Positions 54,227 to 62,371 of a DNA stretch of 64,000 nucleotides are shown here, one piece after another. The position numbers and the translations under genes were made by a program. The notes beneath the pieces were generated by a model. The model was not told the origin of the DNA. It did not search any database and saw only the letters and a program-made list of their open reading frames with translations. Position 1 is the stretch's first letter. Every line of letters starts with the position of its first letter. Source of the stretch: Candidatus Tityobacter terrigena (lineage in GTDB: Bacteria > Vulcanimicrobiota > Vulcanimicrobiia > Vulcanimicrobiales > Vulcanimicrobiaceae); the NCBI GenBank assembly GCA_003156715.1, contig PMHO01000053.1, positions 1 to 64,000 of the forward strand. Reading direction: 5' to 3'.

Positions 54227-56974
54227 ATGCTGTTTCGTTTTGCGCGGGCGGCGCTGTCGCTCGCGCTGATCTGTGCTGCGTCGCTGGGTTACGCCGGCGT
54301 AGCTACCGGACAACCAATGCCGCCCGCGGCGCCGCCGGCGAGTTCCGGCGTCGGGCAAGGGGCGATCAGTGGGGTCGTCGTGGATGCATCGTCGGGCCTT
54401 CCGCTTTCGGGTGCGCGCGTTTCCGTCGTCGGAACTGCGCACGCGGCGACGTCCGACTCGCACGGGGCATTTCGATTTCCGCTGCTTTCTGCCGGCTCGT
54501 ACCAGCTCCGGATCGAGCGTTCCGGCTACCAGCCGACGATTTCCGACTACGTTTCGGTCGTAGCGGGCCAAGATGCGAGCACGACCTTATCGCTCCAGAG
54601 TGCCCCGACCCAGTCAACCCTGCACATCATCGGCCACACCAGCACCAACGCAGCGCAGTCGCTGCAACAATCGAGCGTCATCTACCGCTCGCTTTCCGCA
54701 GAGACGCTCGCCGAGGAGGGCGTCGACCGCGTGGCCGACGCCCTTCGCGAGCTTCCCGGAGTCAACAACGGAATCACCGGCGATACGGCGGCGCTCGCCG
54801 ACGACGTCAACCTGAGCCTTCGCGGCATCGGGACGCTCGAAACGACGGCCGAACTCGACGGCCACCCGATCGCTTACGGATTTCCCGGCGGCTACAACTA
54901 CCAGCTCTCGCCGGTCATGCCGCTGCGGAATATCACCGTCACGTACGGCTCCGGCGGCAGCGATCTACTGGGGGTCAACGCGATCGGCGGCGTCGTCGAC
55001 TTTCAGACGCTCGACCCGACGCCCGAAGACCATTTCACGTTCTCGCAAGGTTGGGGGACGTTCGATCGGCTTACGACTGACCTAAAGTATACCGGAACGA
55101 CCGATCGTCTTGGGTATGCCATCGATCTCGGCACGGCCGGTCTCGATGGGCCAATTAAGAACTCTATCTTCCCGCAACCCGGTGCGGCCTTCGATCCGTC
55201 GGCCCCGCCGGGATCGTACGCATATCAGCTCTATCCGGACGATTCGGGCGCCGTTGCCCGCGACGCCGTCTTCAAACTACGCTATCAGTTGAGCCCCGTG
55301 ACCCGCGTGACGTTCACCAGCACGAACGAATCGTATTGGGAGAACAAGACCGGCAACGGTGACGGTGACTATCTTCCCTACCCGGCAGCGCTTGCGTTCG
55401 GCAAGCAACTCTTAATGAGCAAGACCGCCAGCGACCCGTGCCCGGCCGGCGAATTCCAGCCCCTGAACCAGTTCGGCGTCCCTTATGGCACCGGCCCCAA
55501 CGGCCTGCCGGACGGCGGCGTGCCGTGCGAGACGCCTCAGCAGTGGGCCGGATATAATACCGGTTGGGATGGAGCCGGCACCGCCTGGCAGTCGTTTAAC
55601 TTCAACGATCAGCACCTGGAGCTTGACTCGTCGCAGGGCAGGCAGAACTTTCGTCTCGACGTCTTTACGAACCGCTATTTCAATACCGTCGACCGGACGT
55701 TTGAGTTGCCCTTTGAGAGCGTTCCGGGAGACCAGGCGTCGTGGCGGAACTACGAGACGAGCGAAATGGGCATCGTCGCGAGCGACGACTTCAATACCGG
55801 CCCAAACAATGAGTTCGGTTACGGCTTTTCTTATCTAAATACGTCGTACGATTTTGAGAGGAATGCCGAGCTTCGCGGTGCGCCCTACATCACGGAAGGC
55901 GCCGCATTCTTGCGCGACGTCTTTCACACCGTGAATTCGCCGTTGGCCGTCTATACCAACCTGAACTTCCGCGAATCATCGGCCACCAACACCGACTACG
56001 TCGACCCGCGCGTTTCCGTCGTTTATAACGCCACGCCGAATGACGTCGTGCGGCTTTCCGAAGGCGGCACGACGACCCAACCGGCCGGAAACCAGCTCGG
56101 CGTCCTCTACACCGAATCGCAGCTCGGGGGAGCGGGCGGCGGCGCACCGATCGACTGCCACGGCCTCAACTCGATCGGCAGCGCACCATCGTCGATCCTA
56201 AAACCGGAAGACGGGGTCGATACGGAGCTGGCCTATGGTCACCGCTTCTTCGGCGACTCCCAAGTGCAGCTCGAGTTGTACAATGTGAACGTGTACGACA
56301 AGCTGTACACCTCGCTTATACCGCTCTCGCAGTCCGGTACCGGTTTTATCCCATCTTCGTTCTTGCAACAAGAAATCACGCAGGTCTCGTCGCTGTGCGG
56401 GGTCAACAGCGCCGCCGCAGAGGCCCTTCTCGGATTATCGGGCACCGTAAACGTCGGACAACTTCAGGCCCGCGGCTTTACCCTCAGCGGTCGCCAGCGT
56501 CTCGACCGGCGTACCTTCATCGACTACGACTGGGACCTCGATTCGACGGTGCTCAAGTCGGCGCCGGCACCGCTGCTGCAAGCGAACCTCACGCTCATTC
56601 TCAACGGCCAGATTCCGCGGGTTCCGCTGCATACGCTCGATGCGTCGCTCGACCACCTGTTCGGCGGCGGCGTCGATGCACGTTACACGATCCATACCGT
56701 ATCGGTCAACAACACAAAGAGCCTGCCTGCGTACAACTACAGCGACCTCACCGCGAGTACGCCGCTTGCTCACGGAAAATTCAGCGCGACCATCCAGAAC
56801 CTGTTCAATCAGAACGCGTTCATCGAAGGCCTCCGCTACGAAGGCGTCCCGTTACCGCTCAACCAGTACGCCACGGCCGCCGACTACGCTCCCTATACTG
56901 GTGCCAACGCAACGGAGCTCTTCGGACTACCATACCGGAGCATCTTCTTCAACTACAGCATCCAAACAAGATAG
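54227..56974 (+). CDS. TonB-dependent receptor with carboxypeptidase-regulatory-like N-domain
   Basis: 915 residues. Signal peptide (about 1-30), then a CarboxypepD_reg-like beta-sandwich at about 40-120 (GAISGVVVDASSGLPLSGAR, GAFRFPLLSAGSYQLRI). The plug is at about 140-255 (GVDRVADALRELPGVNNGIT, VTYGSGGSDLLGVNAIGGVVDF). A long outer-membrane barrel ends in aromatic strands (IFFNYSIQTR). GAGGAG is ten bases before ATG 54227. No TonB box can be named with certainty. The substrate is unknown (siderophore, peptide or glycan). YceI follows ten bases later. Confidence 0.92.
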   Translation: MLFRFARAALSLALICAASLGYAGVATGQPMPPAAPPASSGVGQGAISGVVVDASSGLPLSGARVSVVGTAHAATSDSHGAFRFPLLSAGSYQLRIERSGYQPTISDYVSVVAGQDASTTLSLQSAPTQSTLHIIGHTSTNAAQSLQQSSVIYRSLSAETLAEEGVDRVADALRELPGVNNGITGDTAALADDVNLSLRGIGTLETTAELDGHPIAYGFPGGYNYQLSPVMPLRNITVTYGSGGSDLLGVNAIGGVVDFQTLDPTPEDHFTFSQGWGTFDRLTTDLKYTGTTDRLGYAIDLGTAGLDGPIKNSIFPQPGAAFDPSAPPGSYAYQLYPDDSGAVARDAVFKLRYQLSPVTRVTFTSTNESYWENKTGNGDGDYLPYPAALAFGKQLLMSKTASDPCPAGEFQPLNQFGVPYGTGPNGLPDGGVPCETPQQWAGYNTGWDGAGTAWQSFNFNDQHLELDSSQGRQNFRLDVFTNRYFNTVDRTFELPFESVPGDQASWRNYETSEMGIVASDDFNTGPNNEFGYGFSYLNTSYDFERNAELRGAPYITEGAAFLRDVFHTVNSPLAVYTNLNFRESSATNTDYVDPRVSVVYNATPNDVVRLSEGGTTTQPAGNQLGVLYTESQLGGAGGGAPIDCHGLNSIGSAPSSILKPEDGVDTELAYGHRFFGDSQVQLELYNVNVYDKLYTSLIPLSQSGTGFIPSSFLQQEITQVSSLCGVNSAAAEALLGLSGTVNVGQLQARGFTLSGRQRLDRRTFIDYDWDLDSTVLKSAPAPLLQANLTLILNGQIPRVPLHTLDASLDHLFGGGVDARYTIHTVSVNNTKSLPAYNYSDLTASTPLAHGKFSATIQNLFNQNAFIEGLRYEGVPLPLNQYATAADYAPYTGANATELFGLPYRSIFFNYSIQTR

Positions 56975-56984
56975 GTTATCACTC

Positions 56985-57611
56985 ATGAAGCGACTCTCTT
57001 TTCTCGTCGCCGCCGGGCTGGCGCTAGGTGCGCCGGCCCTCGCGGCCTCCGCGCCCACTTGGACTGCCGACCTCGTCCATTCGCGCGCTGAATTCACCGT
57101 CTCGCATCTCGTCGTTTCCAAGGTTTGGGGCCACATCCCCATCGCGGAGATGAGCCTGGGCGCGCGACCGGGCTCGGCCATACCCACGCAAATCGAGGCC
57201 GTGCTCAACGTCGCGCACGAGGACACCGACAACCATGACCGCGACGCCGATCTGCGCTCAGCCACGTATTTCGATATCGCGCATTATCCGACAATGAGCT
57301 TCCGCTCGACCGAAATCGCGCCGAAAGACCCAGACGACTTCACCGTGTCGGGCGACCTAACGATCAAGAACGTCACCAAACCGGTAACCTTTCTAGTGCA
57401 CATTGAGGGTCGCATTCCCGACGAAACGGGAGGGACGCGCGTCGGATACAGCGCGCAATTGCACATCGACCGGCGCCAGTGGGGCATCGTCGACAACAGG
57501 CTCAGCGCGGCCGGGGTGCTTCTCGTCGGCTACGACGTAACCATCGGCTTGACGGCCGAAGCGGTCTCGAACGACCCGGCGCTACGCGTTGGATCGACCA
57601 ACCCGCGCTGA
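56985..57611 (+). CDS. YceI family periplasmic protein
   Basis: 208 residues. Signal peptide (about 1-21, ending ALAAS), then the YceI lipocalin-like barrel: HSRAEFTVSHLVVSKVWGHI, then HDRDADLRSATYFDIAHYPT, then SGDLTIKNVTKPVTFLVHI and DRRQWGIVDNR. The family binds polyisoprenoid or other amphiphilic molecules in the periplasm. ATG 56985 starts ten bases after the TonB receptor stop, so they form an operon and may handle the same lipid-like or chelating compound (inference). Confidence 0.93.
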   Translation: MKRLSFLVAAGLALGAPALAASAPTWTADLVHSRAEFTVSHLVVSKVWGHIPIAEMSLGARPGSAIPTQIEAVLNVAHEDTDNHDRDADLRSATYFDIAHYPTMSFRSTEIAPKDPDDFTVSGDLTIKNVTKPVTFLVHIEGRIPDETGGTRVGYSAQLHIDRRQWGIVDNRLSAAGVLLVGYDVTIGLTAEAVSNDPALRVGSTNPR

Positions 57612-58653: not shown

Positions 58654-58691
58654 GGCACCATTATAGCACGGACATTGCTTTTTCGCCTAGT

Positions 58692-58708
58692 ACTTGTTTT
58701 TTGCAAGT
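58692..58708. promoter_or_regulatory. Candidate HxlR operator
   Basis: ACTTG-TTTTTTG-CAAGT is an inverted repeat with 7-bp spacing in the 147-bp gap between the HxlR gene and the divergent broken gene. The location and AT-rich spacer fit a dimeric winged-helix binding site. No experimental evidence. Confidence 0.4.
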
Positions 58709-58861
58709 TAAAGTGATAGTATCCCTCACAAGCGATCGCAGAAAGACCGCAGGGCCGTACCGGGAAGACGCAAGCCATCAGCCGGCTAGGAGGTACCCAC
58801 GTGGCACGCAAGGCTTGGACGGTGCGCGGCTTTTCAGCCTTAGCATTAACGCTCGTTACGC

Positions 58862-58870
58862 TAGCTACCC
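58862..58870. repeat. Target-site duplication, left copy
   Basis: TAGCTACCC directly precedes the left inverted repeat of the IS element. The same nine bases follow the right inverted repeat at 60237-60245. Confidence 0.85.
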
Positions 58871-60236
58871 GAGGTCGTGCCGATTTCCGGGGAAACGTGA
58901 GATAGACGTTAGCCGGGTTTCGTAGATTATCTCATGCAGCTTTCTTCCTTGCAATACGCCGCGGCGACATTTCTTGATGGACTTTCGCGAGAAGTTGATA
59001 GCCACTCAGTTTGCGCCAATGTTCGGTGCGTCGCACGAGTAACGCGTAAACCAAGTACGTCGCCGACGTGCCTGAGCGAAGACGCTTGCAAACATCGGTG
59101 CGCGATCGTACCGGGTCGAAGTTCGACTCGATGATGTTGGTCGTGCGCAAATGCTTCCAGTGCGGCTTGGGAAAGGCGTAGTACGCCAGCATTCGTTCTT
59201 GGTCGTCGCGTAGGCAGGTTGCAGCCTTGCTGTAATCGCGCTCAAGCGACCGAGCCAATGAGTCGATCAGCGATTTGGCGTGCGCGCGGCTCTCCGCATG
59301 CATGATCTCGCGTAGCGGCCCGAGGTTCTGCGCGCGCATGCGCTCGGGCAGCTTGTCGAGAACGTTGCGCATTTTGTGCAACCAGCAGCGCTGCTGCTTC
59401 GCTCGCGGGTACGTTTTGGAAAACGCACTCCAGATGCCCTGAGCGCCATCGGCGACCAACATAGCGGGGTCTTTAAGCCCGCGTTTCCTGAGGCTTTCGA
59501 AGACGGCCGTCCAGCTTTCTTCGCTCTCGGCAAATGCGTCCTCGATCGCGAGCAAAGCCTTGTCTCCATTGCGATCGACGCCGATTACCACGAGCATCAC
59601 TCGCCGCTCGTCGCTCGGGCCAGCGCCCAGATAGACGCCGTCGGCCCACAAGTAGACGAACTCGTTTGCGATGAAGCGCTGGCACCACTTTTCGTAGTCG
59701 TCGTGGAATTGCTTGTTGACGCGAGAGATCGTTGACGGCGAGAGCGGGGTCTGCTCGCCGAGTAAGGCGCGTAGCGATGGCTCGAAATCGCGCGTCGATA
59801 GACCTTGAATCCACAACTCGTGCAAAGTCGCATCGACGTCTTCGAAACGGCGCCGATACGGCGGCAAGATCTCCGATTCAAAGCGGGCCCGGCCCCCGCG
59901 CACTCGCGGCCGCCGGATCGCGACCGGTGTGCTGCCGTAGGTGACCGTACGCTCAGCTTCGTAGCCGTCGCGATAGCCCGTTTGTCCACCAGCGCGTTCG
60001 CCGCGCAGGCGGCCCAAGAACTCATCGACTTCGGCGATCAGAACGGCTTGGACCAGCTCGCCGACCTTCGCTCGGCACAGTTCCTCGAGGGTGGACAGAA
60101 AATCTTCGCGCGACGACTTGGCAAGCGCCGGCGTTTGCGGGTACACTCTTTTCAAGGCGTAGTCTCCGTGGGTTGTAAGCTAACCTCGGGCTACGCCGCT
60201 CTCTTTTCCGTCACCCCCGGAGATCGGCCCGACCTC
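58871..60236 (-). mobile_element. IS256-family insertion sequence (1366 bp)
   Basis: Imperfect terminal inverted repeats of 22 bp (58871-58892 GAGGTCGTGCCGATTTCCGG..., and the complement of 60215-60236) match at 20 positions. A perfect 9-bp duplication flanks them (58862-58870 and 60237-60245). One intact transposase gene (58932-60155) fills the element. An intact open frame and an identical target duplication point to a recent insertion. Confidence 0.92.
58932..60155 (-). CDS. IS256-family transposase (Mutator-like DDE)
   Basis: 407 residues. DDE catalytic residues sit in YLWADGVYLG (first Asp), AMLVADGAQGIW (second Asp) and TTNIIESNFDPVR (Glu). The RCWLHKMRNVL segment between them contains the conserved C..H of the family. 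The N-terminus has FLGRLRGERAGGQTGYRDGY, typical of IS256 members. TTG start at 60155 with GGAG eight bases upstream. The frame is uninterrupted, so it should be active. Confidence 0.95.
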   Translation of the reverse strand: MKRVYPQTPALAKSSREDFLSTLEELCRAKVGELVQAVLIAEVDEFLGRLRGERAGGQTGYRDGYEAERTVTYGSTPVAIRRPRVRGGRARFESEILPPYRRRFEDVDATLHELWIQGLSTRDFEPSLRALLGEQTPLSPSTISRVNKQFHDDYEKWCQRFIANEFVYLWADGVYLGAGPSDERRVMLVVIGVDRNGDKALLAIEDAFAESEESWTAVFESLRKRGLKDPAMLVADGAQGIWSAFSKTYPRAKQQRCWLHKMRNVLDKLPERMRAQNLGPLREIMHAESRAHAKSLIDSLARSLERDYSKAATCLRDDQERMLAYYAFPKPHWKHLRTTNIIESNFDPVRSRTDVCKRLRSGTSATYLVYALLVRRTEHWRKLSGYQLLAKVHQEMSPRRIARKKAA

Positions 60237-60245
60237 TAGCTACCC
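60237..60245. repeat. Target-site duplication, right copy
   Basis: TAGCTACCC follows the right terminal repeat and is identical to 58862-58870. Confidence 0.85.
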
Positions 60246-60887
60246 AGACGCAGGTGCGAGCGCAGCTACGATCGCCGAAATCAAGCGTGGCGATTACCGG
60301 CGACGGCGATGGCGCAACGTCGGGTCCGACGGCTAAAGGGGCCCTGAGCGCGGACGAGGCAATCAATCAAGCGTTATTAGTCAACGACACCGACGCATTA
60401 GAAACGCTGCTCGCTGACGATTGGGTCGTCGTCAGCGGCTTTGGCGGCATTGCCGAAAAAAGCGGCTTCATCGACTTTATTCGCAAAGGGGGTCCGCGGA
60501 AAACGATGACCCTTTCGGAAGCGCGCGTTCGGCTTTACGGAGACACCGCTCTCGTAACGACGCACCTGCGCGCTTCAGGGCCTTTCGTTGCGGAAGTTAA
60601 CGGAAAGCTCGTTCGTAAGTGCTTCGATGTCAAAGAGCGCCAAACCGACGTCCTCGTTTGGAAGAATCGAGCTTGGAAGTCCGTTCTGCTGCACGAGACC
60701 GTGATCCCGCCGGGACCCAAGCTCGGCTGCACATAACGCCCGGACCCGCTCGTAAATGCGAGCGAGGGCGGATGCCCGTACGTGGGCCGGGTGTGCCGAA
60801 ATGTTTCCGAAACCGGCTCGCGAAAACGGCCGCGACGGTGGCCGGCTCGGTCGCCCCACCGGGCTTATCCAATCTTGGAGAGATTCG

Positions 60888-61255: not shown

Positions 61256-62371
61256 GTGAGCGCCCTTTTTTCGCCTTTCGAGCTGCGAAGCATCACCCTC
61301 CCCAATCGAATCGTGGTCGCGCCGATGTGCCAATACTCGGCGAACGACGGCGAGGCCAACGCTTGGCACTTGATTCATCTGGGAACGCTGTCCCTTTCGG
61401 GCGCCGGGATGCTCTGCATCGAGGGGACCGCGGTCGAACCCGAAGGACGCATCACGCCGAGTGACCTCGGTCTTTGGAACGACGCCACTGAAGCCGCGCT
61501 CGTGCCCGTGCTCGCGGCCGTCCGCACGTACTCGAAGATTCCCGTGACGCTGCAACTCGCGCACGCGGGGCGCAAAGGTTCGAGCCGCGTGCCATGGGAA
61601 GGCGGCGAGCAAATTCCGGTCGCGGACGGCGGCTGGCTGACATCCGCCCCATCGGCCGTCGAGTACAAGGCCGGCGAGACGAAACCGCTCGAGCTTGATG
61701 CGCGCGGATTGTCACGCGTACGCGCCGCCTTCTCGGCGGCCGCAGAACGCGCGGCACGGCTCGGCCTAGATGGCATCGAACTTCACGGGGCGCATGGATA
61801 CCTCATCCACGAATTCCTGTCCCCAATCGCAAACCGACGAACTGATGGGTACGGCGGATCGCTAGAGAATCGTCTGCGCTTTCCACTCGAGATCTTCGAT
61901 GCCGTTCGGGCCGCATTTCCGGCGGACAGACCCGTCGGCGTCAAGGTGTCTGCGACGGATTGGGTCGAGGGGGGCTGGGATCTTCAACAAACCATTGCAT
62001 TTGCGAAAGAACTCAAGCATCGCGGCGCGGATTGGATCACCGCATCTTCGGCAGGCGTGTCTCCGCTGCAGAAAATCGCGCTCGGGTCCGGTTATCAGGT
62101 ACCATTCGCAGAGGCCGTGAAACGGACGGCCGGCGTCAACGCCATCGCGATCGGCCTCATCACGGGCGCGCAGCAAGCCGAAGAGATCGTCGCAAGCGGC
62201 AAGTCCGACCTCGTCGCCCTTGCGCGCGGCATGCTCTACGATCCGCGTTGGCCGTGGCACGCCGCAGCCGAGCTCCACGCGACGGTTGAAGCGCCGCCTC
62301 CGTACTGGCGCGCTCAGCCGGCAAATCTGCGGGGTCTCTTCGGAGAGCGCGCCGTCTCCGGACTACGTTAA
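61256..62371 (+). CDS. NADH:flavin oxidoreductase, Old Yellow Enzyme family (YqjM-like)
   Basis: 371-residue TIM-barrel flavoenzyme. LPNRIVVAPMCQYSANDG (Cys of the thermophilic-like/YqjM class), LQLAHAGRKGS, GIELHGAHGYLIHEFLSPIA with RRTDGYGGSLENR, and the C-terminal phosphate site VALARGMLYDPRWPWHAA are all present. It binds FMN and reduces activated C=C bonds with NAD(P)H in the cytoplasm. GTG start at 61256. No clear operon partner; the lipoprotein propeller gene follows 186 bp later. Confidence 0.93.
   Translation: MSALFSPFELRSITLPNRIVVAPMCQYSANDGEANAWHLIHLGTLSLSGAGMLCIEGTAVEPEGRITPSDLGLWNDATEAALVPVLAAVRTYSKIPVTLQLAHAGRKGSSRVPWEGGEQIPVADGGWLTSAPSAVEYKAGETKPLELDARGLSRVRAAFSAAAERAARLGLDGIELHGAHGYLIHEFLSPIANRRTDGYGGSLENRLRFPLEIFDAVRAAFPADRPVGVKVSATDWVEGGWDLQQTIAFAKELKHRGADWITASSAGVSPLQKIALGSGYQVPFAEAVKRTAGVNAIAIGLITGAQQAEEIVASGKSDLVALARGMLYDPRWPWHAAAELHATVEAPPPYWRAQPANLRGLFGERAVSGLR

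Follow-up and report, generated by a model that had tools for sequence, protein, structure and literature searches.

What this locus raises as a question is whether the 1366-bp element lying between a signal-peptide start and a DUF4440 domain interrupts what was once a single gene, and what such an interruption would have changed. In the 64-kb window (the whole stretch of DNA that was analysed), we are close to certain that a single IS256-family element inserted into a gene encoding an exported DUF4440/NTF2-like protein, at its codon 24, and made a 9-bp target duplication, and we found no evidence that contradicts this explanation. The coordinates are collected in Table 1. The span given by the first-pass annotation, 58801-60736, describes the disrupted gene and not the element itself, which occupies 58871-60236.

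Table 1. Features of the interrupted locus, in window coordinates.
Feature	Position	Strand	Basis
Divergent HxlR-type regulator, 213 aa	58012..58653	-	PF01638 E=2e-22
AGGAGG ribosome-binding site of the host gene	58788..58793	+	Sequence
Host gene, 5' part: signal-peptide N-region and hydrophobic core	58801..58870	+	Joined frame
Target duplication, copy 1, TAGCTACCC	58862..58870		Sequence
IS256-family insertion sequence, 1366 bp	58871..60236	-	Ends and duplication; ends common to related elements; single genomic copy
Terminal inverted repeat, transposase 3' side	58871..58892	+	20/22 identical to opposite end
Promoter-like motif TTGCAA-17-GATAAT, TG before -10, outward towards HxlR	58926..58954	-	Scan; same place in related elements
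Transposase, 407 aa, TTG start, intact	58932..60155	-	PF00872 239.4 bits; NF033543 299.6 bits; 6xg8 E=7.8e-35
Terminal inverted repeat, transposase 5' side	60215..60236	-	20/22 identical to opposite end
Target duplication, copy 2, TAGCTACCC	60237..60245		Sequence
Host gene, 3' part: DUF4440 (NTF2-like) domain	60246..60736	+	PF14534 E=2.9e-12; relatives

The termini of the element, GAGGTCGTGCCGATTTCCGGGG and GAGGTCGGGCCGATCTCCGGGG, form imperfect inverted repeats of 22 bp, within the roughly 20-30 bp expected of the IS256 family; they are identical at 20 of the 22 positions and diverge beyond. Both tips abut the perfect 9-bp repeat TAGCTACCC, which is absent from the rest of the window on either strand, and for which the chance of a match at two independently defined tips is about 1/260,000 (4 to the power 9). 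The boundaries of the element are not a product of chance, because the same ends, and the same start (base 1) and stop (base 1366) of DNA similarity, recur in relatives. Among 99 genomes searched from the window's bacterial family, 20 showed DNA similarity to the element (E <= 0.001), several of these matches begin at element base 1 or end at base 1366, and ends of the GAGGTCGnnCCGAnnTCCGGG type are recurrent among the related elements, which rules out a chance repeat as the source of the ends. The exact 9-bp duplication agrees with the 8-9 bp expected of the family and is found in two relatives as well: TCTAGCTGA at the L022 insertion and CCTGGAAGG around the L036/L044 pair of genome G008. 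No duplication was found at other related insertions such as L017 and L021. Copy-out/paste-in movement is established for the IS256 family, and the element would have reached this site by that route.

The family assignment made by the first-pass annotation is upheld by the transposase, which scores at twice the cut-off of the curated, equivalog-level IS256 model NF033543 (299.6 versus 150 bits) and also matches Pfam Transposase_mut (PF00872). The enzyme aligns over 360 residues with a solved relative, 6xg8, which we take to be the ISCth4 transposase, and retains the DDE triad (D172, D236, E343) and a C/DxxH motif (C257/H260). ISCth4 is an element of 1,503 bp with mostly 8-bp duplications, and its transposase is an IS256-family enzyme with DDE residues D175, D241 and E348 and a C/DxxH motif (PMC7780238). 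Like ISCth4 and the staphylococcal IS256, the element of the window has a single Mutator-type DDE transposase with a C/DxxH motif in the insertion domain, a short duplication of the target and inverted ends that match imperfectly; unlike them, its ends start with GAGGTCG. Its subterminal motif also differs: it resembles GCGGCGTAGCC, in a degenerate form at the left end, where TGTAAA is reported for members of the IS256 family (PMC7780238); the GCGGCGTAGCC motif is present in related left ends and in the right end of the window's element, at 60180-60200.

When the element and one copy of the repeat are removed, 58801-58870 and 60246-60736 join in one open frame of 186 codons, with a GTG start located 7 nt downstream of the AGGAGG. 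The joined protein has a basic N-region followed by a hydrophobic core, with a plausible cleavage site after ...QTQVRA, beyond the insertion point, and the DUF4440 (PF14534) match of the host gene scores 47.4 bits against a cut-off of 25.2. The exact target duplication, the uninterrupted joined frame, the exported NTF2/DUF4440-like host protein and the divergent HxlR regulator (PF01638, 79.3 bits versus a cut-off of 20.8) had all been put forward by the first-pass annotation, and each is borne out here. The joined protein has the signal-like N-terminus and NTF2-like domain of exported DUF4440 (PF14534) proteins; unlike theirs, the gene of the window is interrupted by an element. The present-day upstream piece is a 34-codon frame with its stop inside the element. 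The insertion leaves the cleavage site and the domain cut off from the ribosome-binding site and from most of the signal peptide, so the exported protein would no longer be made. The earlier proposal that the present strain lacks this protein should hold for the exported form, while an unexported fragment may still be produced.

Elsewhere in the same family, seven genomes carry an uninterrupted homologue of the host gene, six of these homologues being clear and one (G113) distant, and none of these relatives carries the element at the same place without an intact gene. The best homologues belong to sister genera and are 57-68% identical over the domain, with L046 and L047 at 67-68%. L046 aligns with the joined protein from residue 1 to residue 186, hence across the insertion point as had been predicted, though identity at residue 24 is low; hydrophobic, signal-like N-termini, read by eye, stand at the matching place in L046, L047, L003, L004 and L048. 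Since residues about 24-46, the linker around the insertion point, are variable and not conserved in the relatives, the join rests on the frame, the duplication and the type and architecture of the N-terminus. The dN/dS ratios of the gene remainder, about 0.5 against L046, 0.23 against L047 and 0.13 against L003 (the last with saturated dS), indicate that selection acted on the host gene in the lineage.

It might be argued that the insertion dates far back and has become fixed, with the domain now used as a cytosolic protein whose expression starts within the element. The downstream frame is indeed undamaged, and at 60118-60147 there is a promoter-like match, TTGGCA-18-TACACT, oriented towards it. 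However, most of this match lies within the transposase coding sequence and no ribosome-binding site is visible before the GTG at 60254; the perfect duplication and the intact element favour youth, albeit as an indication and not a proof, and we consider an old, fixed insertion very improbable. A recent date, as first proposed, is suggested by the perfect duplication, the intact transposase and the undamaged remainder of the gene, in the sense that the insertion is not old enough to have decayed. Weaker still, to the point of being barely tenable, is the idea that no gene was split and that the element lies between a chance frame (58801-58870) and a separate gene starting at the GTG at 60254, because, although that GTG opens a frame of 160 aa with the whole domain and the join lies in a linker that lacks conservation, (i) the upstream start has its AGGAGG 7 nt before it and a typical signal peptide behind it, (ii) no comparable ribosome-binding site is visible upstream of 60254, (iii) at least five homologues begin, at the matching place, with a signal-like N-terminus and (iv) the frame is kept once the element and one repeat are removed.

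A single insertion into the host gene being thus by far the best explanation, the origin of the element can be considered. The related elements L017 (G106), L018 (G026), L019 (G093) and L022 (G081), all from the same bacterial family, have the same type of ends, related transposase-coding DNA and, in most, the same position of the outward motif described below; however, their DNA is only 65-71% identical to that of the window's element and they are therefore not its immediate source. No close source was found in the 99 genomes of the family (best long DNA match, 71%), no close relative of the transposase in the genome contigs searched (best protein, 65%), no close relative on plasmids (all under 60%; best among the matches listed, 43%) and no relative of the element in viral contigs. 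DNA and protein searches of its own assembly, a draft of 3.9 Mb in 66 contigs that is 93% complete, revealed no second copy and no resident donor. As the element is present in a single copy and has no close relative elsewhere, it probably arrived from outside, or its donor copy is missing from the draft. Collapse of many copies during assembly is unlikely, the element being whole inside a 336-kb contig. Among the relatives, L017, from the window's family, and L011 have element ends and flanks in common. L022 (891-2421) has a second left end at 1060 within the element, and the two ends are separated by a stretch of N; a tandem insertion or a gap left by scaffolding may account for this.

A scan placed the outward, promoter-like motif of the element at the 3' end of the transposase gene. 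In nine of 11 related left ends, several of which are near-copies of one element so that the independent cases are fewer, the -10 of the best outward match ends at a distance of 52-55 bp from the tip, is preceded by TG and reads GATAAT, TATAAA, TATAAG or GATACT. The exceptions are L015 and L039, the latter keeping TGAGATAAT at the same place with a higher score elsewhere. The TG falls within the stop codon and the -35 in coding sequence, leaving the -10 hexamer as the only part without coding constraint; its conservation could have another cause, e.g. transposase binding. In the IS256 family the promoter is split across two ends, whereas here the motif is complete inside one end. Hybrid promoters are known to form at the ends of IS256-family elements (PMC7780238, citing Maki and Murakami 1997). 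Because the position of the motif is kept and such hybrid promoters are known, it is reasonable that, after insertion, the motif may also transcribe the adjoining HxlR gene. A bolder and rather doubtful proposal is that a complete outward promoter in this subgroup would, while the element is a circle, direct expression of the transposase across the junction and, once the element is inserted, that of the adjacent gene, such that here the HxlR gene would be under the control of the element and its divergent partner silenced.

The pairing of the two host genes is found again in L003 (G029), where an HxlR gene 33% identical to the window's regulator is divergent from the DUF4440 homologue; no divergent HxlR neighbour was found beside the other six homologues within the DNA examined, i.e., one case in seven. 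Short dyads occur in the interval that separates the HxlR gene from its divergent partner, both in the window (ACTTG-TTTTTTG-CAAGT, 58690-58710) and in L003 (GCAACTAGTTGC, upstream of 1429), and are possible candidate binding sites for the regulator. The window further has a YceI-like gene (56640-57611) and an old-yellow-enzyme-type flavin oxidoreductase (61256-62371) which, with the HxlR gene, hint at a stress-related neighbourhood.

Taken together, the insertion is real, well preserved and ordinary, and no general question depends on it. Automatic annotation would report two fragments here and not one gene. The locus, from an uncultured lineage, is a clean case of a gene lost through insertion, and the outward promoter-like motif common to the relatives of the element provides a small testable lead: if the element does control the regulator, the HxlR/DUF4440 pair would have been rewired in one step.
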